A DNA stretch of 64,000 nt from a virus. Location of the stretch: the IMG/VR virus record IMGVR_UViG_3300035701_000008, positions 49,587 to 113,586 of that record; one strand, given 5' to 3'. Below are positions 26,453 to 62,626 of the stretch, piece after piece (within the stretch, counting starts at the first letter, position 1; the number at the start of each line of letters is the position of its first letter). A program made the translations under genes and the position numbers. The notes beneath the pieces are model-generated. The model searched no databases. It had not been told where the DNA came from and worked only from the letters and a program-made list of their open reading frames with translations.

Positions 26453-26681
26453 TTTAGTCGAGAGTTTATTCATTGCAACTCACAAGTGTTCCCTATCCAC
26501 AGAGACCATAGATTACAAGTTTAATGTGGATGTAATACCACGATTATTGAGATTGGCACTAGTAAAACCCAAACCATAAAGTACTCAACTCCTTCTCTGC
26601 GTGGAAAGGACTTAACATTCATGAGAAGCCAAATTTCTCTAATGTCTGTTGCTGTACATATTTGACATCAAGCAACTGCTG
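26453..26681 (-). ncRNA. Structured 3' trailer of the tmRNA transcript, unknown class
   Basis: 229 nt with no credible reading frame between the tmRNA 3' end and the terminator. On the minus strand a long stem is visible: GACATT and AGAGAA pair with TTCTC and AATGTT, and the trailer ends with a GAGTT/AACTC hairpin just before the terminator. It may be only a processed trailer or a separate small RNA. I do not recognise a known family. Confidence 0.4.
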
Positions 26682-27003
26682 TGGAGGTGGGGAGAGTCGA
26701 ACTCCCGTCCAAACTACTTTCATTAATACAATTTATACAGCTTATGGGGTCAAGCTCAGCTCAACGATTCCACCACTCTGTTTAATCTTACTACAGAGAA
26801 GAATAATTAATTTAGGCTGCTACAGCAACTTCTTCTCTAATTAAAGAGAATACTCTGTTCATGTTAGCTACTACTTGTGCGTTATCTCCTAGAGACACTA
26901 CACGACTTGTGTTTTTGCCATTTAATCTATTCACCTTAGTTTACAGTTATCTCTCTGGCTGATTGTACTAACTATTGGTAACCTGTCAAATCCAGTCACC
27001 CCC
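26682..27003 (-). ncRNA. ssrA: Transfer-messenger RNA (tmRNA)
   Basis: 322 nt. 5' end (minus strand) GGGGGTGACTGGATTTGACA is the tmRNA signature; the 3' end has GGACGGGAGTTCGACTCTCC (T arm) then CACCTCC and discriminator A. GGGGGTG pairs with CACCTCC and gives a G3-U70 wobble pair, the identity element for alanyl-tRNA synthetase. CCA is not encoded (ACAG follows). The inner part has an open tag frame ending in TAA (26,812-26,814). tmRNA rescues stalled ribosomes with SmpB and tags nascent proteins; SmpB would come from the host. Some phages carry tmRNA, but it is uncommon. Confidence 0.93.
26812..26889 (-). other. Tag-peptide reading frame inside the tmRNA
   Basis: If translation resumes at GGA (26,887-26,889) the tag is 25 residues: it begins GDNAQVVANM, continues NRVFSL, and ends IREEVAVAA. 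The GGA start is inferred from the 'GEN-' type of Bacteroidota tags and the upstream TAGTGTCTCTA. The frame stays open further upstream, as far as GGC in AATGGC, so an even longer tag is possible. Usual tags are about 8-20 residues and end ALAA. The final AA needed for ClpXP-type recognition is present. Confidence 0.7.
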
Positions 27004-44515: not shown

Positions 44516-44589
44516 CGTGTGGTAGAGCAGTTGGTTAGCTTGCAAGACTCATAATCTTGAGGTCGTTGGTTCGAGTCCAACCCACGCAA
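44516..44589 (+). tRNA. tRNA-Met (CAU), initiator-like
   Basis: 74 nt cloverleaf. Acceptor CGTGTGG/CCACGCA, D stem GAGC/GCTT, anticodon stem CAAGA/TCTTG with loop CTCATAA (anticodon CAT), T stem GTTGG/CCAAC with TTCGAGT loop, discriminator A, no encoded CCA. C1 faces A72, the unpaired first pair typical of bacterial initiator tRNA. The three G-C pairs (GGG/CCC) of initiator anticodon stems are missing. Ile-2 (lysidine) is a further option for a CAT anticodon. Confidence 0.9.
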
Positions 44590-44623
44590 CAAATTAAACC
44601 AAATTATTAAATTTAACTACATT

Positions 44624-46636: not shown

Positions 46637-47809
46637 ATGGCTGATTTTTCATTAACCACGCTCTTCGTGGTTCCAGTGGGGCAAACTGCACTCCCTAGCT
46701 CTGGCTCAACACAAAACTTGACTGCAGGACAAGTTGGTATTTTTAGAAACGATTATTCGTTAGCTACTGCTGCAAACATTGCTGCTGCTCCGTATTTCTA
46801 TGTAGCACAAGGTAGAGAAAATACTTATTTACAAGGCTCTAAAAGATCTGATAAGATTAAAGGATGTCCTTCTGGATCTGGTTGTAACTCAAATGTAACA
46901 GAATGGTACAAAGTATCAGGATGTCCAACTGCTGCTAATCAAATTACTGATGTAACTAATTTCACTGTACAATGTGGAGAAAGTATCACGTTAACTTTAC
47001 GTGCTCACTCTTCTTATATTGATACATTGTATTTTAATGGATTTACACGTTCAGTAACTATTCAAGCTCCATGTTGTGGTTGTTCAGAGAATCCATGTGA
47101 TGATGTATCTGATAATACAATCATCGAGTTATTAATTGCTAAATTAAGACAACAAGCTCCAGGTAACAACCCTGATAACATTAACTTCAACACATTCTTC
47201 ACATTTGAAAATGTAGGTGGAACAATTTTACGTATTACAGGAAAACCATTAACTAAATATGGTCAACCTTGTGATGTAGCTGCGTTCCCATTTGAATATG
47301 ACAGAATGTCTTTCAGAACTTTTGTATATGCTGGTCCAGCTACCACTGCTGACTTTATTGTTGCAGATGCTTGTAACTTGGTTGCTAACCCAATCATCAC
47401 TCAACGTGCTTCTTATGCTACAGGACAATCTGCAGAGATTGCTCAATTAGAGAAAAACTTCTACAGCTACCAAGCAGGTTACTTGAAACATTTATATAGA
47501 ATGGTTGGTTACAATGAGAACTTTGAGTCTTGGGTATCTACTGGTGTCACTTATGATACATACTATATCAAATTCAATGAGTACAACAAATCTGAATACC
47601 AATGGGGTGATTACATTATGGAAGATTCTACAGTGATTATTGCTGCTCCAAACTCTGTAACAAGTGGTATTTCTGCTGCAATCACTACTGTATTAGAAGC
47701 TGGTTTAGGAACTGTTGTTGATCAAGGTAGTCCTTGTATCACTACAACAACCACTACATCTACTGCTGCTCCATCTACTACTACCACTACTTCTACAAAC
47801 ATTCCTTAA
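46637..47809 (+). CDS. Virion protein with Thr-rich C-terminal tail
   Basis: 390 residues. LFVVPVGQTALPSSGSTQNLTAGQVGIFRNDY (N-terminus), two Cys-rich sections (CPSGSGCNSN; CCGCSENPCDD), and a beta-rich body. The protein is conserved in crAss-like phages and thought to be a head or tail-tube component. The last 27 residues are TTTTTTSTAAPSTTTTTSTNIP: a bare Thr tail without a following domain. Unusually high Cys for a capsid-type protein. Confidence 0.65.
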   Translation: MADFSLTTLFVVPVGQTALPSSGSTQNLTAGQVGIFRNDYSLATAANIAAAPYFYVAQGRENTYLQGSKRSDKIKGCPSGSGCNSNVTEWYKVSGCPTAANQITDVTNFTVQCGESITLTLRAHSSYIDTLYFNGFTRSVTIQAPCCGCSENPCDDVSDNTIIELLIAKLRQQAPGNNPDNINFNTFFTFENVGGTILRITGKPLTKYGQPCDVAAFPFEYDRMSFRTFVYAGPATTADFIVADACNLVANPIITQRASYATGQSAEIAQLEKNFYSYQAGYLKHLYRMVGYNENFESWVSTGVTYDTYYIKFNEYNKSEYQWGDYIMEDSTVIIAAPNSVTSGISAAITTVLEAGLGTVVDQGSPCITTTTTTSTAAPSTTTTTSTNIP

Positions 47810-48575: not shown

Positions 48576-49598
48576 ATGTTATCACCAAGACTAACCAATT
48601 GCCCAGAATGTGCTAACATTCCTTCCATCCTTAAAAAAATAGATTGTAAGTTAGCAGAACTTGGTAACAACTTGTACAACAATATTTCATATATGTTGAA
48701 CAAGCCTATACCTGCTGGTGATATTCTCCAATTGATAGCATATAGAAGAATACTAACTTATAAGTATTGTAATCCTGATTATGTACATGAATACTCTATA
48801 GCTATGATAGCTAGTAGAGTGATACGTCTTACATTAGGATGTGTTAGTAGATGTAATACACCAGAACCTTGCATAGAGGCTCCTTGTGATATTACTATTG
48901 TATTAAATCCAACAACTACAAATACAAGTACACTTCCTCCATCTACAACAACAACAACCACTAGTACAAGTTCTACTAGTACCACAACTAGTACCACTAC
49001 AACTATATATAATCCTTGTCCAAATTGTACACCACAAGATGTTTCAATTGGTTCTCAAGTATGGTCAAAATGTAATTTAGATGTAACAACTTATAGAAAT
49101 GGAGATGCTATACCAGAAGTGACTGATTTTACAACATGGGCTAGCTTAACCACAGGTGCTTGGTGTTATTACAATAACGACCCAGCAAATGGAGCTATTT
49201 ATGGTAAATTGTATAATTGGTATGCTGTTAATGATCCAAGAGGATTAGCTCCTACAGGTTATCATATACCTAATGATGCTGAATTTTTAACATTAGTTTC
49301 TTTTGCAGGAGGATCATCTGTTGCTGGAGGTCTTTTAAAAGAAACTGGTTTATGTCATTGGACAAATCCAAATACAGGTGCTAATAATTCTACTGGATGG
49401 ACAGCACTTCCAGGAGGTGTTCTTAGTATTCTTGGTGGAGGATTTTATACAATTAACGAACAAGGTTATTATTGGAGTTTAACTGATACTTCCTTAACAA
49501 ATGCTAATTTTTTGAGTTTTAGTTATTTTTTTACTACAGTTTATTTAAGTGATATTGTAAAAACAAATGGTTTCTCAGTTCGTTGTATTAAAGATTAA
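48576..49598 (+). CDS. Tail adaptor fused to FISUMP receptor-binding domain
   Basis: 340 residues. Residues 1-105 (MLSPRLTNCPECANIPSILKK, ...YNNISYMLNKPIPAGD...) match a stand-alone crAss structural protein as I recall it. Residues 112-146 are a Thr/Ser linker. Residues 150-340 are a FISUMP (Fib_succ_major) domain: QDVSIGSQVWSKCNLDV, then LTTGAWCYYNNDPANGAIYG, YNWYAVNDPRGLAPTGYHIP, and NGFSVRCIKD at the end. The fold is related to C-type lectins, so surface or glycan binding is likely. Confidence 0.75.
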   Translation: MLSPRLTNCPECANIPSILKKIDCKLAELGNNLYNNISYMLNKPIPAGDILQLIAYRRILTYKYCNPDYVHEYSIAMIASRVIRLTLGCVSRCNTPEPCIEAPCDITIVLNPTTTNTSTLPPSTTTTTTSTSSTSTTTSTTTTIYNPCPNCTPQDVSIGSQVWSKCNLDVTTYRNGDAIPEVTDFTTWASLTTGAWCYYNNDPANGAIYGKLYNWYAVNDPRGLAPTGYHIPNDAEFLTLVSFAGGSSVAGGLLKETGLCHWTNPNTGANNSTGWTALPGGVLSILGGGFYTINEQGYYWSLTDTSLTNANFLSFSYFFTTVYLSDIVKTNGFSVRCIKD

Positions 49599-50757: not shown

Positions 50758-51135
50758 ATGGCTTATCCTTTTTTACCAGTGAATCCTTGCTGTACAGACG
50801 TAGTTTTAAATAGTCCTTGTGGATGCAGTTCTACAACCACTAATTGTGGCTGTAACAATAATGCATGTACTACAACATTAAATGCATCTAGCACTATTGT
50901 TTATAATGGTCCTGTATTATCATGTATAATAGCTGAACCATGTGATACACTTAATGTAATATTACAAAAGATAGATGATATTATATGTAATCTTTTAAGT
51001 CAAATCAATACATTAAATGTTCAAGTTACAAACATCACTAATCAGGTAATAAATCTCAATAATGAAATAGTTGATATAACCACTATATTAAATGGATGTT
51101 GTACAACCACTACCACCACCACTACATCATTATAA
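50758..51135 (+). CDS. Cys-rich coiled-coil virion protein with Thr tail
   Basis: 125 residues. CCTDVVLNSPCGCSS, NCGCNNNAC, VYNGPVLSC and EPCDTLNVILQKIDDIICNLLSQI, then a long coiled coil and the end CCTTTTTTTTSL. The N-terminal part shares the 'PL.C....CD.LN.IL.K.D...C' unit with the next gene. It seems an attachment/trimerisation module whose Thr tail lacks a following head domain. Confidence 0.65.
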   Translation: MAYPFLPVNPCCTDVVLNSPCGCSSTTTNCGCNNNACTTTLNASSTIVYNGPVLSCIIAEPCDTLNVILQKIDDIICNLLSQINTLNVQVTNITNQVINLNNEIVDITTILNGCCTTTTTTTTSL

Positions 51136-51138
51136 ATT

Positions 51139-51474
51139 ATGTGTAATAACTCTGAAATAAATAATATAACAATAACAGGAACAAGTGCTGTCTCATATGA
51201 TAGCACTCCACTTCCTTGTACAAATATAAAAACTTGTGATGGGTTAAATACAATTCTTACTAAGTTAGATGATGTATTATGTTCTGCTATAGCTAATGTA
51301 GAAACACTTAAAGATAATGTAATAAACATCACTGAGGACTTAATGATTATAGGAGAAGAGATAATTAGTATTGATAATCAACTATTTACATGTTGTCCAA
51401 TATGTAATTTTACAGGAACTGCTAATCAAATTCTAGTATGCACATTTACTGGACAAGCTAATCAGCTTCCATAA
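51139..51474 (+). CDS. Cys-rich coiled-coil virion protein, paralogue of previous
   Basis: 111 residues. SYDSTPLPCTNIKTCDGLNTILTKLDDVLCSAI parallels residues 45-80 of the previous protein; then a coiled coil (NVINITEDLMIIGEEI) and a C-terminus with two copies of a C-x-FTG-x-ANQ unit (CNFTGTANQ, CTFTGQANQ). Duplicated gene with changed C-terminus; likely a tail-fibre adaptor. Confidence 0.65.
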   Translation: MCNNSEINNITITGTSAVSYDSTPLPCTNIKTCDGLNTILTKLDDVLCSAIANVETLKDNVINITEDLMIIGEEIISIDNQLFTCCPICNFTGTANQILVCTFTGQANQLP

Positions 51475-51501: not shown

Positions 51502-52248
51502 ATGACAGTATTAATAACATTAACAACAGCTGGAATTGATTCAGGTCCATTTGATCTATATTCAGATCTTGATGGTTATTTATCAGCATTTGCAACAGGA
51601 GTAACTAGATCAGCATTACTTGCTGGATATTCTTCTTCAGTGGTACCTGATTATACAACTACTATAAGAGTGGTTTCTGTAGGAGATTGTACAAACTTTA
51701 TTGATATATATTTATCTGGTACAGGTATAACCACAACAACAACAACCACTGTTGTAAATCCTTGTAATATTTATACAGTAGGTCAAGCAACGTTAGGTGG
51801 AATAATTGCTTACATTTTACAACCAGGAGATCCAGGATATGATGCAAATGTTTGTCATGGACTTGTTGCAACAGCTAATGACATTAACCTATCACCTTGG
51901 GGATGTGATGGTACATTAATTTTAGGAGCTAATGGAACAACAATAGGAACAGGAAGCTTAAACACTACTCAGATAGTAAGTGGATGTCCTACACCAGGTA
52001 TAGCAGCAGAGTATAGTATAAATTTAATTCAAGGTGGATATAATGATTGGTATCTCCCAAGTATTGGTGAATTAAATAAATTGTATTTAAATAGATTTCT
52101 TATTGGTGGGTTTAATTTAACTGCATCATATTGGAGTTCTAGTCAAAGCGGAAATTTCTTTGCAAAATCTAAAAACTTTAACAATTCACTTGCTCAAGAT
52201 ACAAGCAAAACTGTAACTCTTTATAGTCGTCCTATAAGATCTTTTTAA
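51502..52248 (+). CDS. Attachment module fused to Lcl_C (DUF1566) domain
   Basis: 248 residues. Residues 1-75 are the shared N-terminal unit (MTVLITLTTAGIDSGPFDLY..., ending VGDCTNFIDI). A Thr linker GITTTTTTTV follows. Residues 88-248 form an Lcl_C (DUF1566) domain: IGGIIAYILQPGDPGY-type start, GGYNDWYLPSIGELNKLYLN, ASYWSSSQ, and RPIRSF at the end. This C-type-lectin-like fold is used for glycan binding, and is a frequent target of diversity-generating retroelements. Confidence 0.75.
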   Translation: MTVLITLTTAGIDSGPFDLYSDLDGYLSAFATGVTRSALLAGYSSSVVPDYTTTIRVVSVGDCTNFIDIYLSGTGITTTTTTTVVNPCNIYTVGQATLGGIIAYILQPGDPGYDANVCHGLVATANDINLSPWGCDGTLILGANGTTIGTGSLNTTQIVSGCPTPGIAAEYSINLIQGGYNDWYLPSIGELNKLYLNRFLIGGFNLTASYWSSSQSGNFFAKSKNFNNSLAQDTSKTVTLYSRPIRSF

Positions 52249-52272
52249 TAATAAAAATATAATAAATAAATT

Positions 52273-52947
52273 ATGACAGCATTAATAACATTAGTTATAC
52301 CAGTTGGTGGGGATGCAGGTCCTTTCAACCTTTTTTCAGATGCAACTGGATATGCAACAGCATTTGAAACAAATGTGGCTGCATCACTTTTAACAGCTGG
52401 ATATACCACTTCTCTTGTTCCTAATGGAACAACTATAATTAGAGTGGTGTCTACAGGTGCATGTACAAATTTTATTAATATACCAGTTAATTTAATTCCA
52501 ACTACCACCACTACAAGTAGTAGTTCTACAAGTACATCAACTAGTACATCAACTAGTACTAGTACATCAACCAGTACTTCTACAAGCACTAGCACTAGCA
52601 CTTCTACAAGTACAAGCACTTCTACAAGCACTTCTACTAGTACAAGTTCTACTACCACCACATCTACAACTACTCCACCAATTACAACAACTACCACTAC
52701 ACATACAACTGCTCCTCCAGGACCTGTTACTATTAATTTAAGTAATGCTTCTAGTGGTTGTCCTGCTCCTGTAAGTAGTTATCCTATTGCAGTAACTTTA
52801 GATGGTTATCCTATTGTAGTTGGTTCTGTTTTATCTGGTGGATTACCTCCTGCTGGACTTTCTTATTATACAAGTCCTACTTTTGGACTTATCTTTGATG
52901 CATTTGGAGTAGTAACAACAATAATCAATTGTGGTCCTCCACCATGA
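52273..52947 (+). CDS. Attachment module, long Thr/Ser repeat and unknown C-terminal domain
   Basis: 224 residues. Residues 1-75 match the N-terminus of the previous protein (LITLVIPVGGDAGPFNLFSD... TTIIRVVSTGACTNFINI). Residues 76-147 are almost only Thr and Ser (about 30 TS-type pairs). Residues 150-224 (PGPVTINLSNASSGCPAPVS, LDGYPIVVGSVLSGGLPPAG) are a small beta-type domain of unknown family. A terminator follows. Confidence 0.7.
   Translation: MTALITLVIPVGGDAGPFNLFSDATGYATAFETNVAASLLTAGYTTSLVPNGTTIIRVVSTGACTNFINIPVNLIPTTTTTSSSSTSTSTSTSTSTSTSTSTSTSTSTSTSTSTSTSTSTSTSTSSTTTTSTTTPPITTTTTTHTTAPPGPVTINLSNASSGCPAPVSSYPIAVTLDGYPIVVGSVLSGGLPPAGLSYYTSPTFGLIFDAFGVVTTIINCGPPP
52499..52700 (+). repeat. 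Thr/Ser-coding hexanucleotide repeat tract
   Basis: Imperfect tandem units of six bases (AGTACA, ACTAGT, ACTTCT, AGCACT) encode Thr-Ser pairs over about 200 bp. Changes of unit number would keep the frame. Such tracts are prone to slippage or recombination. Confidence 0.75.
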
Positions 52948-56553: not shown

Positions 56554-59500
56554 ATGGCTGATCAAGAGGATAAACAATCTGGAAATATTAAACAAGAATT
56601 CAATAGTGCAAACATTGGATTGAATATGGATCAAACTGTGAACCAGATTAAACCTGGTACACTAACCTATGCATTAAATGCTGCTTTAGAAAACTTTGAT
56701 TCAAGTTCTGTTAATTACCAAAATGAACAAGGTAATGAGTTATGTGTTACATTTCCTCAAGGGTATATATTAATTGGTACACATTTTATTAATGAAAAAA
56801 ACAAACATATATTCTATATAACTAATCCTGATATAAACAATAGTCAGATTGGATATATGGATAATAATGATTGTATCTATCGTACATTAGTAGAAGCACC
56901 TTGTCTTAACTTCAACATCAATCATCCTATACACAAAACAGTACATAAGATTACAAATTGTACTATAGAGATATATTGGACAGATGGTATTAATCCAAGA
57001 AGATATTTAGATCTTAATAATGTACCAAAACTATTACAAGTAGGTAGCACTCTTTGTGATCCTATATACACTGATGAATTAGATTGTAATCAACTTAAGT
57101 TACAACCAAACTTTAGTATTCCTCAAATCAATGTAACAGATATTACTACAGGAGGAGAACTTGTTGCTGGTACATATCAGTTTGCTGCTCAGTATTCTGA
57201 TGCATTAGGTAATCCATACACCTCTTATTATTCTGTTACCAATCCTACACCTATTGCAGACGTAGCTATAACCACAGTTAATTTTAATTACACTGTAGGA
57301 AAATCTATTGTTATTAATGTAACAGAACTAGATGTTACAGGTCAATATCAATATTTTAACTTAGCTGTGATTAAAACAGTTAATGGAATAACCTCTGTAG
57401 AATTAGTAGGAACATATTTTATTGAACAAGATAATGACCAAATTACTTACACAGGTCAAAACAAAACTCAGATACAGTTAACTATCAATGATATATTTGA
57501 AAAGTTTCCTTATTATGATATAGCCCAAGATGTTACATCTGTACAAGATATACTTGTATGGGATAACCTTACATCCATAAATAGAATTAACTATCAATAT
57601 ATTGCTTCTAATATAACTCTATTATGGGAAACATATAGAATCCCTGCCACTGAAAACTATGCTGATGAAATAAATGCTACAAACTTACGTGGGTATCTAC
57701 GTGATGAAGTGTATGCATTTGAAATTGTATTCTTATTGAAGAATGGAAAACAAACAGATGGTTTCCATATTCCTGGAAGAGTAAAAGGTTTTGTTGAAAA
57801 TACAAGTCCTAATATTCTTGACACTGATCCAGATTTTATTGGAGAACCAGAACCAGGAACAAACTATAGTCCTTATTGGAAAATATATAACACAGCTTCT
57901 GTAATAGGATCAGCAGTGGGAGATCCTATTGGAAATGCTACACCATATCAATATGGTCAATTTGCCTATTGGGAATCTACAGAAGAATATCCTTGTAATG
58001 CAGATGTATGGGGTGATCTAGCTGGACAACCAATTAGACATCATAAGTTCCCAGATATTCTTGTTAGTCCAGCATTTGAATCAAGATTGTTTACAACAGC
58101 TAGCTCATTAGTAATGGGTAATGATGCTGTATTTCCTATTGGTGTTAGAGTGGATAGTGACCAGATTAGAAGTCTTATTTCTTCTTCTCCATTAACTGTT
58201 GAACAAAGAGATGATATTGTTGGATACAAAATAGTAAGAGGAGACAGAGGAACAAACAAATCTATTGTAGCTAAAGGAATACTTAGAAATGTAGGAACCT
58301 ATGAAAGAGAAGGTCAAAACTATTACTTTCCAAATTACCCATATAATGATCTTAATAAAGATCCATTTATAAATAAAACAAACAATGCTTGGAAACAAAT
58401 ATGTGAACCATTTGTTATAAATGTTACAGAATTAGATAGCAATGGTGTTGTTAAAATAGAATACACTAGTTGCAACACTGATAAATTAACAACACAAGAA
58501 TTAAAAACACTAGGGCCTCATAATATTTGTGCTATATCAAAACCATTAGTTATATCAGGTAAAGCTACCTCTGCTTATGGTAATTATGAAATTTGGACAA
58601 TTGCTTCTGGTGGTACATTTATTCAAGCATGTGCTGGATGGAGAGCTCAATGGACTGATCAATTTGGACAAACACAAACAGAATGGGTAGAAGGATGGCC
58701 AACAAATTCTAGTTACACTATTAATGTAAAAGCTTCAGAACCAGGTTCACCACCTAATGTTTTTTGTGTAGAGTATTGCAATCACTGTGGTATAGAAATT
58801 CGCAAAATAGGTGAAGTGATTGCAGCAGATCAATGTAAAGATCCTACACCACAACCACCATTAGAAGAAACTAATGCTCATAGACAAATATTTAATTCTC
58901 CAGAAACTTCTTTTGGACAACCATTTTTAGGAAACGTTCTTAAATTAGAGAATGTAATGTTTGGTGGAGGAAAAGGACATTTTACTCAAGTGAAGAATAA
59001 TGCTAAATATAAACTTCTTACAAAGGAAGCTCAACAAGATGCATTAGCTAGTTCTTCAACAATAGGTAATATAACTAATCCATTTAATGCTACAGCAATG
59101 TTCACTGCATACCAAGCATATTTAACAATATATGTAAATGGTATTACAAGAAGAAACTATGCTCAATCATTTAACACTATAGCTGATTATAACTATTCAG
59201 AATCTATACCTAATGGTCAAGGAGTTAAACAAAGAAACTTAGGTATAAAAAGATATTTAATTCCTGGAGTTGAATCTGTAGGAGATACATTTCCTGTTAA
59301 TAACTATAGAAGAGAATCATCAGTTTATTTAAGAACTGATCTAACTAAACCAGTATTACCATTTCCAAGTAATAGTCCTAATATGATTGTTGCAGGAAGT
59401 CCTAAAGTTACAGATTATTCTAGATTTACTATTGGAGATACATCTGCATGTTCTTCTCCAGAGAAAGAACAAGACTTACGTGCAGTTTCATATTATGCAT

Positions 59501-61758
59501 CATTAAAAAATCAATTTGTAAATCAATGGGGACAAATATATTCTTATGAAACAATTGATACAGGATTCCAAAGAAACATTTATTCATCAGGAACATCAGT
59601 AGTTTTTGGTGGAGATACATTTATTTCTAGATTTACATTCAAGACTAAACTTCCTTTCTTTATAGATAATAGAGTGGGTGCTCCTGATGATAGCGATATA
59701 TTCTATGATGAAATAGGTAACATAGCTTATCCAGTGTATTGGCATTCTGCTAGATCTATATTGGAAGATTATTCATTAACTGTAGGAGGAGCAGCTACAT
59801 TAACAAACATCATATCATATAAAGCACATAATTTTGATTGCCCTAATAGTCAACTTCCTGCTCCTCCAGATACTAATCCTAATAGAACATACTATGATGG
59901 ATACTTCTATTTATTTGCATATGGTATTCCTAATTTCTATTGTGAGAGTTCTTACAATACAGATCTTAGACAAGCATTCAATAATAGAGAAGGAGATTTC
60001 TGGCCACATGTATCTACAGGTATTCCTGATGATTGGGTACAAGAAAGTTATGTATCTATAGCTAATGATAATACATATACATATAATGTAACATTCTCTA
60101 AACAGAATAAAGAAAATACATTTACACACCTTCCTCCAGATTGGACTAGTCAATTATGTTTTACATATTATCCATTTAGAGCAATCTATTCTGATTCACA
60201 AAATATAGATGCTGATAATAGAGTGAATAGTTGGTTAACATATAGAGCACTTTCATATTTTGATTTCCCTCAAAACTTTGGAAACTTAACATCATTAGAT
60301 GGTATACAGAATAAAGCTGTACTAGCTAGATTTGAGAATAAGACATTGATGTATAACAATCTCTTAACTATTGATACAAGTAATCCACAAGCTGCGTATG
60401 TAGGTAATCCAACATTGTTTAGAGGAGCTCCTCCAATAGACTTTGCTGAAACAGATCTTGGATATGTAGGAAGTCAGAATAAAATGTTATTAAAAATACC
60501 ACAAGGACAAATTACTGTTGATGCTAAGAGAGGTCAAGTGTTTCTTATACAAGGAACACAAGTGGAAGATTTATCAGCATTTGGTTCTGGAATGAATAGA
60601 TTCTTTACAGACCATTTAGCATTTGAAATTCTTAGATATTTTCCATCAAAACAAATTTTAGTTGATGGACAATTAATAACTATACCTGGAGTTAATACAG
60701 ATAATAATTTTACAGGTATTGGTTTACATGGTTTCTATGATAGTAAGTTTGATAGAGTTATTATATCAAAACTTGATTACATTCCTTTAGATAATAATAT
60801 TCAATATGATTCTGCAACTAGAGAGTTCTACATTGAAGAAACAATAAATGAGGTTGTATTTAAAACACAAGTGTATTTAACAGATCCAGAATATTTCTGT
60901 AATAAGTCTTGGACTCTATCATTCAATGTAAACACAAAAACTTGGGTGAGCTTTCATAGCTACATTCCTAATTTCTATATAGCAGAAAACAATTTCTTCT
61001 ATTCAGGGATTAATGGATGTTGTGATGATTTTGATTTAATTGCAGGAGAGATAGTTCCTACTCCTCCAACAACAACCACCACTAGTACACCAGCTCCTCC
61101 AACAACAAGTACTACCACTACAGCTAATACAAATTGTACATTAGTTGGAATAGGAAGAGTAACAGATTGTACATTAGTTGGAACAGGTGTAATTACAGTT
61201 CCCCCAGTTTGCACAAGACCTACTGGATTAAATTCATTTACATTGATTACAGGATATAATATAATATCTCCACCATCAACTGTTGTTTCAACAGGAAGTC
61301 AAATAGATGCTTGTAATGCAATTACATATGTAACAACAAATGCAGGCTTTACATATACATCAGTTATTGGAAGAGCTGCAAGTCTTATATTGTTGGAAAC
61401 AGTGTATGCAAACAATGGTACAACAGATTGTAGTGTAGTGCCTGATGGTTGGTATTTTACAGATGAAAGTGCAAATACAACAAGAGAGGTGTATCACATT
61501 GTATCAGGAGTGATCACTGATATAGTGGCATGTTTTACACCAACCACTACAACCACTACAACACTTCCTTGTACATTGTATAAAGCATCAAAAACTGCAG
61601 CTGGTATATCTACAATTAATTATGTAAATTGTGCAGGTGTTCCTACAATTACAGAAGTTGGAATTGTAGGAGGAGGATATTCAGAAGTAACATTTTGTGC
61701 ATCATGTTGTACATCAGTTCCACCAAGTGTAACATTAACTAATATAGGAGGATGCTAA
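56554..61758 (+). CDS. Giant muzzle-type tail protein with Thr linkers
   Basis: 1,734 residues. MADQEDKQSGNIKQEFNS then IGLNMDQTVNQIKPGTLTYALNAALENFD and WTDGINPRRYLDLNNVP are conserved at the N-terminus of the crAss muzzle (tail stabilisation) protein. The body is long beta structure with Cys pairs. Around 1,504-1,525 is a Thr/Pro linker, then CTLVGIGRVTDCTLVGTG repeat units, a further beta domain, another Thr run at about 1,662 and a Cys-rich end. The body probably forms the tail end; the appended C-terminal modules are likely surface exposed. Confidence 0.8.
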   Translation: MADQEDKQSGNIKQEFNSANIGLNMDQTVNQIKPGTLTYALNAALENFDSSSVNYQNEQGNELCVTFPQGYILIGTHFINEKNKHIFYITNPDINNSQIGYMDNNDCIYRTLVEAPCLNFNINHPIHKTVHKITNCTIEIYWTDGINPRRYLDLNNVPKLLQVGSTLCDPIYTDELDCNQLKLQPNFSIPQINVTDITTGGELVAGTYQFAAQYSDALGNPYTSYYSVTNPTPIADVAITTVNFNYTVGKSIVINVTELDVTGQYQYFNLAVIKTVNGITSVELVGTYFIEQDNDQITYTGQNKTQIQLTINDIFEKFPYYDIAQDVTSVQDILVWDNLTSINRINYQYIASNITLLWETYRIPATENYADEINATNLRGYLRDEVYAFEIVFLLKNGKQTDGFHIPGRVKGFVENTSPNILDTDPDFIGEPEPGTNYSPYWKIYNTASVIGSAVGDPIGNATPYQYGQFAYWESTEEYPCNADVWGDLAGQPIRHHKFPDILVSPAFESRLFTTASSLVMGNDAVFPIGVRVDSDQIRSLISSSPLTVEQRDDIVGYKIVRGDRGTNKSIVAKGILRNVGTYEREGQNYYFPNYPYNDLNKDPFINKTNNAWKQICEPFVINVTELDSNGVVKIEYTSCNTDKLTTQELKTLGPHNICAISKPLVISGKATSAYGNYEIWTIASGGTFIQACAGWRAQWTDQFGQTQTEWVEGWPTNSSYTINVKASEPGSPPNVFCVEYCNHCGIEIRKIGEVIAADQCKDPTPQPPLEETNAHRQIFNSPETSFGQPFLGNVLKLENVMFGGGKGHFTQVKNNAKYKLLTKEAQQDALASSSTIGNITNPFNATAMFTAYQAYLTIYVNGITRRNYAQSFNTIADYNYSESIPNGQGVKQRNLGIKRYLIPGVESVGDTFPVNNYRRESSVYLRTDLTKPVLPFPSNSPNMIVAGSPKVTDYSRFTIGDTSACSSPEKEQDLRAVSYYASLKNQFVNQWGQIYSYETIDTGFQRNIYSSGTSVVFGGDTFISRFTFKTKLPFFIDNRVGAPDDSDIFYDEIGNIAYPVYWHSARSILEDYSLTVGGAATLTNIISYKAHNFDCPNSQLPAPPDTNPNRTYYDGYFYLFAYGIPNFYCESSYNTDLRQAFNNREGDFWPHVSTGIPDDWVQESYVSIANDNTYTYNVTFSKQNKENTFTHLPPDWTSQLCFTYYPFRAIYSDSQNIDADNRVNSWLTYRALSYFDFPQNFGNLTSLDGIQNKAVLARFENKTLMYNNLLTIDTSNPQAAYVGNPTLFRGAPPIDFAETDLGYVGSQNKMLLKIPQGQITVDAKRGQVFLIQGTQVEDLSAFGSGMNRFFTDHLAFEILRYFPSKQILVDGQLITIPGVNTDNNFTGIGLHGFYDSKFDRVIISKLDYIPLDNNIQYDSATREFYIEETINEVVFKTQVYLTDPEYFCNKSWTLSFNVNTKTWVSFHSYIPNFYIAENNFFYSGINGCCDDFDLIAGEIVPTPPTTTTTSTPAPPTTSTTTTANTNCTLVGIGRVTDCTLVGTGVITVPPVCTRPTGLNSFTLITGYNIISPPSTVVSTGSQIDACNAITYVTTNAGFTYTSVIGRAASLILLETVYANNGTTDCSVVPDGWYFTDESANTTREVYHIVSGVITDIVACFTPTTTTTTTLPCTLYKASKTAAGISTINYVNCAGVPTITEVGIVGGGYSEVTFCASCCTSVPPSVTLTNIGGC

Positions 61759-61759
61759 T

Positions 61760-62626
61760 ATGTCAAAAACTATAACCATAAAATTAACAAAGGCTGGCCC
61801 TAAAGCAGGGCCATTCACCATCTCTGATCAATTTGGTAATATAATAGCAGAAGATGTTCTTAAAAAAACTCTTATTGCTGGCATTAGTTACATTGTAAAT
61901 AATAATGTAACAATTCTTGTAATAAAGTCTACAGGAAGTTGTAAGATAGAAAAGACAATAAGTCTTGCTCCTATAACAACAGAAGAATATGCTAACAGTA
62001 CTTTTTTAGAAATTATGACAGCATGTATATGGAGACATTTGACTAACATAAGTCTTTATAATACATTCTATGGAAACATAGAACCATATATTATTGAGTA
62101 TCCATTTGCGTATAAATATCAAGATGAAATCTTACAGAATGTAAAAGACTATACGAAAGCATATGAGTATATATCTATATCAGATGGTGTATTTAATGAT
62201 AATACAAGAATAGAAACAAACAATAAATATTTTAATAAGAGTATTCTATACAATGGACAACAGAGTTCAGGAGTGTTGAATCTTGTTGCTAAACCTCTTA
62301 ATGATATGCGTGCGTACATGCAATATCCAATATTCAATACAGATAGCAAAACAATTCTATATACCAAGAGTGATAACTTCTATCAGTATAATACATTCTT
62401 TGCTTTACAGAAAAGTTCTCAAGTTCCATTGTTTAATACAGGATGTGAAAGCTTATCTATTGATAAGGTGATTAACCAAAGCAATATGGATTATGGATCC
62501 AGAAGTTTCAAGAAAGCTACACTAAGAGCTAAAGAGCTCAAGATACGTCATATATTAGATGACAATTGTACAACTCATCTTGTCTCACAATTTATTATTG
62601 GAACAGCTCAAATATCATATAAATAA
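61760..62626 (+). CDS. Tail protein with divergent attachment module
   Basis: 288 residues. Residues 3-72 (ITIKLTKAGPKAGPFTISDQ... VLVIKSTGSCKIEKTI-type) align with the N-terminal unit of the proteins at 51,502 and 52,273, here without a Thr linker. The C-terminal 200 residues (FLEIMTACIWRHLTNISLYN, YIEYPFAYKYQDEILQNVKD) are a different alpha/beta domain, conserved in crAss-like phages as I recall. It is 1 nt from the muzzle stop and TAATG-coupled to the next gene. Confidence 0.65.
   Translation: MSKTITIKLTKAGPKAGPFTISDQFGNIIAEDVLKKTLIAGISYIVNNNVTILVIKSTGSCKIEKTISLAPITTEEYANSTFLEIMTACIWRHLTNISLYNTFYGNIEPYIIEYPFAYKYQDEILQNVKDYTKAYEYISISDGVFNDNTRIETNNKYFNKSILYNGQQSSGVLNLVAKPLNDMRAYMQYPIFNTDSKTILYTKSDNFYQYNTFFALQKSSQVPLFNTGCESLSIDKVINQSNMDYGSRSFKKATLRAKELKIRHILDDNCTTHLVSQFIIGTAQISYK

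Follow-up and report, generated by a model that had tools for sequence, protein, structure and literature searches.

Conserved docks and exchanged heads on predicted tail proteins of an aquatic crAss-like phage clade with a split muzzle

The window analyzed here, a stretch of 64,000 nucleotides corresponding to positions 49587-113586 of the 113,586-base virus record IMGVR_UViG_3300035701_000008, belongs to a member of the Crassvirales, as it encodes the crassvirus major capsid protein (Crass_capsid, E=9e-29), ring 1 (CrAss_Ring_1, E=3e-10), ring 2 (CrAss_Ring_2, E=1e-17) and the muzzle (crAss_MUZ, E=4e-34) according to Pfam. Among these tail genes (rings 1 and 2, muzzle) lies a group of genes which, as we think likely, forms a tail-display system of a widespread aquatic crAss-like clade, with fixed docks that carry tethered and interchangeable heads. 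Scans of public viral contigs yielded 233 usable loci, and their comparison shows putative docks that are retained while the heads are exchanged, exchange at the linkers, a pool of heads common to several docks and a muzzle that is split into two genes.

The proteins encoded from positions 51502, 52273 and 61760 (p51502, p52273 and p61760) have a common N-terminal module of about 70 residues. The first-pass annotation had described the first two N-termini as related and the third as a more distant copy, and had proposed an alignment and a profile search, both of which confirmed the relationship. The local score is 197 for p51502 against p52273 (z=32), 73 for p51502 against p61760 (z=11) and 67 for p52273 against p61760 (z=8), and none of 2000 shuffles scored as high in any of the three comparisons. 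Three copies were found in the whole 113,586-base record, and the profile recovered the module in 349 open reading frames (ORFs), 251 of them distinct from the module start, in the 233 loci with many different C-termini. There is one module per protein and it is N-terminal without exception; 35 seeming offsets turned out to be out-of-frame upstream reads, which stop just before the module's own start codon. The 251 distinct proteins comprise 106 with the muzzle C-terminus, 94 with a Thr linker and a head, 34 without a head, 11 with a head but no linker and 6 incomplete ones. All 17 large, near-complete records contain two to six module copies, among them a frame of the size of the muzzle-linked protein. 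Proteins of 920-924 residues also start with the module (L083, 1900-4662; L065, 1374-4148), and their remainder gave only a Kelch-motif match below the cut-off (E=0.004); the record of L083 has six module copies. The module was absent from the named phages searched, and a single-protein pattern scan of one genome from each of 84,980 bacterial and archaeal species did not find it either. AlphaFold2 predicts six strands and a short helix, with block means of the predicted local distance difference test (pLDDT) between 68 and 90, and the nearest predicted viral structural neighbors are proteins of the unclassified Virus NIOZ-UU157. This virus has a p61760-like protein of 287 residues (54% identity) and a protein of 939 residues, and the predicted structure of the latter can be aligned to the module region at 1.6 A over 74 columns; both proteins are annotated just as uncharacterized.

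In p51502 and p52273 the module is followed by a linker and a head:
51502-51711, + strand: N-terminal module of p51502 (profile match)
51730-51750, + strand: Thr linker of p51502 with 7 Thr (sequence)
51757-52245, + strand: head of p51502, Lcl_C/DUF1566-like and probably C-type-lectin-like (Pfam, PHROG, tblastn)
52273-52488, + strand: N-terminal module of p52273 (profile match)
52501-52716, + strand: Thr/Ser linker of p52273 (sequence)
52717-52944, + strand: head of p52273, no known family (no Pfam or PHROG match)

Lcl_C had been named for the head of p51502, and a match to this family (PF07603) is present but weak, since its 20.7 bits (E=5e-4) stay under the Pfam gathering score of 34.9. The same head matches phrog_4245 (E=1.3e-16) and, by tblastn, a 'C-type lectin fold protein' of a Porphyromonas phage annotated as DUF1566 (E=8e-6). 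As had been claimed, p52273 carries a different head, which matches neither Pfam nor PHROG and was seen only in this lineage. Its core Thr/Ser run comprises 60, 64 and 68 residues in the window and in the near-identical genomes L004 and L005, respectively, as expected of slippage in a repeat of Ser and Thr codons.

The proposal that the dock is kept while the heads are swapped was corroborated by clean replacements between relatives with both flanks conserved. In L027 and L021, the 4.3 kb that lead up to the linker of a module gene are 93.2% identical, and the identity is again 93.2% from the end of this gene, whereas the heads in between are unalignable; L062/L080, L173/L169 and L215/L211 follow the same pattern. 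A head can also be missing, which is evident for a second type of dock:
48576-48905, + strand: p48576-type dock (clustering, relatives)
49041-49595, + strand: Fib_succ_major head of p48576, absent in L005 (Pfam)

The head of p48576 belongs to Fib_succ_major (PF09603; 140 bits, E=1.4e-40, gathering score 33.9). The sequences flanking the linker and head of p48576 are 99.7% and 99.5% identical between L005 and the window, but p48576 of L005 is a headless stub that ends with NPTTTTTTTVV before the stop codon. In L011 (95.6% identical) the linker of p48576 is longer and the head divergent; in our reading, the latter is still of the Fib_succ type. For 1340 ordered pairs of related loci, which are not independent of each other, the share of unaligned bases is 63% in heads, 55% in linkers and 12% in the coding sequence of docks, a 4-5 times higher share in heads and linkers than in docks. 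The 267 head events among such pairs start within 25 bp of a linker in 76% of cases (background 42%) and end within 60 bp of a stop codon in 84% (background 10%), although both values are partly circular, as 'head' was defined from the linker. The linkers are repeats of Thr codons, mostly ACA, ACT and ACC, and recombination presumably uses these repeats. It could be argued that such repeats are merely prone to recombination or slippage and that the C-terminal domains are neutral passengers without function, as the slipping linker length of p52273 and the commonness of headless stubs might suggest. However, the exchanges preserve the frame and finish at the stop codon, and the head families, conserved between docks and between genomes, are predicted to fold with high confidence; we regard neutral passengers as quite improbable.

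Exchange of heads on conserved docks extends beyond the module, which is one of at least four docks using the same heads. Strict clustering of linker-separated segments placed the commonest head on the muzzle (61), on coil docks (50), on the module (13) and once on a p48576-type dock. Of the Fib_succ_major heads, 8 are on p48576-type docks, 9 on the muzzle and 3 on coil docks. Further head families are also common to several docks, and a head of about 140 residues occurs in a module protein (L026), in a muzzle (L205) and in a third protein (L182). A constant pairing of one head with one dock, which the first-pass annotation had named as the observation that would speak against swapping, is thus not what the loci contain. 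The coil docks are represented in the window by two genes:
50758-51135, + strand: coil-type dock (p50758), headless here, with a bare Thr stub at its end (sequence, clustering)
51139-51474, + strand: second coil-type dock (p51139), without Thr tail here (sequence)

A highly conserved structural protein encoded at 46637-47809, with 73-80% identity across relatives, likewise terminates in a bare stub rich in Thr and looks like a further dock without head. Iterated profiles did not support a grouping of the p52273 head, a common head of other docks and the first muzzle head into a single family.

The third module protein, p61760, differs from the other two in that it has neither Thr linker nor head, so the described order of linker and variable C-terminus applies to p51502 and p52273 and not to p61760. 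Instead of a third head fiber of the same kind, as had been assumed, p61760 is a fusion of the module to one half of a split muzzle:
56554-61056, + strand: MuzA, first part of the crassvirus muzzle (PF25731; Pfam, alignment)
61057-61128, + strand: Thr/Pro linker of MuzA, ends approximate (sequence)
61243-61533, + strand: muzzle head 1, alpha/beta; of its 86 distinct relatives, 84 sit on muzzles (profiles, AlphaFold2)
61570-61755, + strand: muzzle head 2, all-beta; its 104 distinct relatives sit on the muzzle, coil docks, the module and a p48576-type dock (profiles, AlphaFold2)
61760-61972, + strand: module fused to the muzzle C-terminal piece in p61760 (profile match)
62000-62623, + strand: MuzC, the separated C-terminal part of about 205 residues of the crassvirus muzzle (family match, alignment)

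The upstream gene (56554-61758) encodes the first part of the muzzle (p56554; PF25731, E=4e-34) and matches the N-terminal part of the family, whereas residues 81-288 of p61760 constitute the C-terminal part; within these, residues 88-286 match positions 1588-1781 of the 1783-position family. When both proteins are compared with two unsplit muzzles, from Flavobacterium phage Fpv1 and from Leptolyngbya phage Lbo-JY46, p56554 stops aligning after WVSFHSYIPNFYIAENNFFYSGINGCC and p61760 picks up at CIWRHLTNISLYNTFYG, and between these two break points the unsplit proteins have only about a dozen residues. Taken as a two-chain protein, MuzA and MuzC align with the Lbo-JY46 muzzle over nearly the whole length; the muzzle of the window is not a single polypeptide but the product of separate genes, the first ending in a Thr linker and heads and the second opening with the module. 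The equivalent point in crAss001 gp44 lies between EFYAFKDG and KMWEQFAG near residue 1234 (weak match) and, by the published domain order of gp44 (PMC10172136), would be past the crass and IG2 region, presumably in the propeller or ring-joining part. All 134 loci showing both ends have a split muzzle with the module on the second half, 113 with adjacent genes and 21 with one module gene in between; the lack of unsplit muzzles is partly a matter of selection, because module or p61760 queries were used to retrieve the loci. The MuzC-linked modules form one clade with a support of 1.0 (84 members and 3 contig-end-truncated ones that are probably of the same type), and the fusion therefore most likely arose once and is not swapped. 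AlphaFold2 modeled the two muzzle heads with a mean pLDDT of 88 and disorder confined to the Thr linker, which predicts independent domains; Foldseek found no significant solved neighbor for them. The MuzC part alone stayed mostly below 50 (shallow alignment), as a fragment dependent on its partner would be expected to do. A programmed frameshift joining both halves was set aside because the intergenic gap varies from -1 to 22 nt and 21 loci hold a whole module gene between the halves. Nor is the module an internal domain of unsplit muzzles, as neither Fpv1 gp30 nor the Lbo-JY46 muzzle gave a match to the profile. A scan with the C-terminus of the latter found no relatives. An unsplit muzzle related to this clade is present in L085 (PP438436.1), which is on record as a phage of the cyanobacterium Leptolyngbya, even though crassviruses have been described as infecting Bacteroidetes (PMC10136315).

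Based on these comparisons we propose that the fixed docks are a few conserved proteins, namely the module, the split muzzle, the p48576 type and the coil type, each of which may end in a flexible Thr/Ser tether with none, one or several small heads from the common pool. Whole heads are gained, lost or replaced, with the exchange entering at the Thr-codon linker and leaving at the gene end, as the comparison of relatives shows. The module is an obligate N-terminal domain, of which one copy is permanently fused to the separated MuzC piece, while one to five free copies per genome carry the swapped heads. Fusion to the muzzle C-terminus would place the former copy on the tail tip, and free modules may dock there, on or near the muzzle and perhaps on the muzzle-linked paralogue. 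This might involve the one Cys that is invariant in 208 of 208 modules compared and is the only Cys in 198 of them; a covalent dock is plausible because the fiber hubs of crAss001 virions use inter-chain disulfides (PMC10172136). One could go further and assume a homotypic 'patch-panel' tip, for which the muzzle was divided to let each of its six subunits display a module at the split point, with free module proteins plugging onto these by module-module contacts, possibly sealed by a Cys disulfide; we consider this version doubtful. As no credible sequence homologues in the PDB were found for the module, p56554, p61760/MuzC, p46637, p47900, p48576 or the coil docks, we do not equate the docks with THA/THB of crAss001.

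The heads would bind glycans or other receptors of the host surface before the muzzle opens. Alternatively, they could be adhesion or decoration domains (for mucus, algal or particle polysaccharide, or virion shielding), so that swapping alters where the virion sticks and not which host is infected. The heads are small, occur several to a virion protein and are often missing, as in the 34 headless module proteins, which suggests that no single head is essential. Yet they are encoded by tail genes, that of the muzzle among them, and for the distal part of the muzzle a contact with the cell surface has been proposed (PMC10172136). Lcl_C-like domains are C-type-lectin-like and, judging from the named families, would be receptor-binding in other phages; we regard an adhesion or decoration role as unlikely. 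Several points weigh against the tail-display system as a whole. Foldseek gave no significant solved neighbor for the module, with weak matches mostly to immunoglobulin- or fibronectin type III-like (Ig/FN3-like) folds, and the head folds did not significantly match known receptor-binding domains. Furthermore, the retrieval with module or p61760 queries shaped the sample, the loci are metagenomic and mutually related, so that counts are not independent, and an assembly chimera is possible for any single pair of loci.

Modular receptor-binding proteins have long been known. A conserved N-terminal anchor with exchanged C-terminal domains is found in the tailspikes of Klebsiella Przondovirus (PMC12692247) and in the tail spikes of Ackermannviridae (PMC8432352), and the same arrangement of conserved anchor and exchangeable distal domain is seen here. 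In contrast to these proteins, the heads, which are candidate binding domains, have only 60-190 residues, sit on Thr/Ser tethers, are often absent and are common to several unrelated docks including the tail-tip muzzle. The muzzle resembles that of PhiCrAss001 (gp44, PF25731), as p56554 matches the family and p61760 carries its C-terminus. The length of muzzles is reported to vary by insertions in the crass and IG2 domains (PMC10172136), whereas the chain is divided here outside these regions, the first part carrying a linker and heads and the second part the module. Variable lectin-type domains on crAss-like tail proteins are also reminiscent of the C-type-lectin-fold targets of diversity-generating retroelements (DGRs), which are known in crAss-like phages (PMC7290462, PMC12386605). 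However, the variation consists of replacement and loss of whole domains instead of targeted mutation, and no reverse transcriptase (RVT_1), which a DGR would have linked to it, was found in the record of this genome, which may be incomplete; a DGR is for this reason a very remote explanation. A search of the open-licence literature retrieved no paper on Thr linkers in crAss-like phages. What is unusual, in addition to the modular tail proteins themselves, is that one head pool serves several docks and that the muzzle appears to have been converted into a two-chain display site.

Two RNA genes were detected elsewhere in the window. A tmRNA gene is located at 26679-27003 on the - strand (Rfam RF00023, 83.8 bits, gathering score 47, E=5e-31, full model length; ARAGORN concurs), and a tRNA-Met (CAT) at 44516-44590 on the + strand separates the capsid gene from the structural gene that follows it.

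Little is known about variation of host recognition in crAss-like phages outside the DGR-bearing groups. The unit of dock, Thr tether and head is concrete and defined by sequence, and such a grammar would aid the annotation of hundreds of uncharacterized phage genes. As there are natural near-isogenic pairs differing in one head, the function of heads is directly testable. The muzzle has been described as one conserved gatekeeper chain; in a large aquatic clade it would be a display platform of two chains and, if the patch-panel assumption were true, an open-ended set of exchangeable heads could be mounted directly on the gatekeeper that triggers ejection. Near-identical phages can differ in a head, so that the tail surface would be remodeled by the exchange of whole domains while the rest of the virion stays unchanged.
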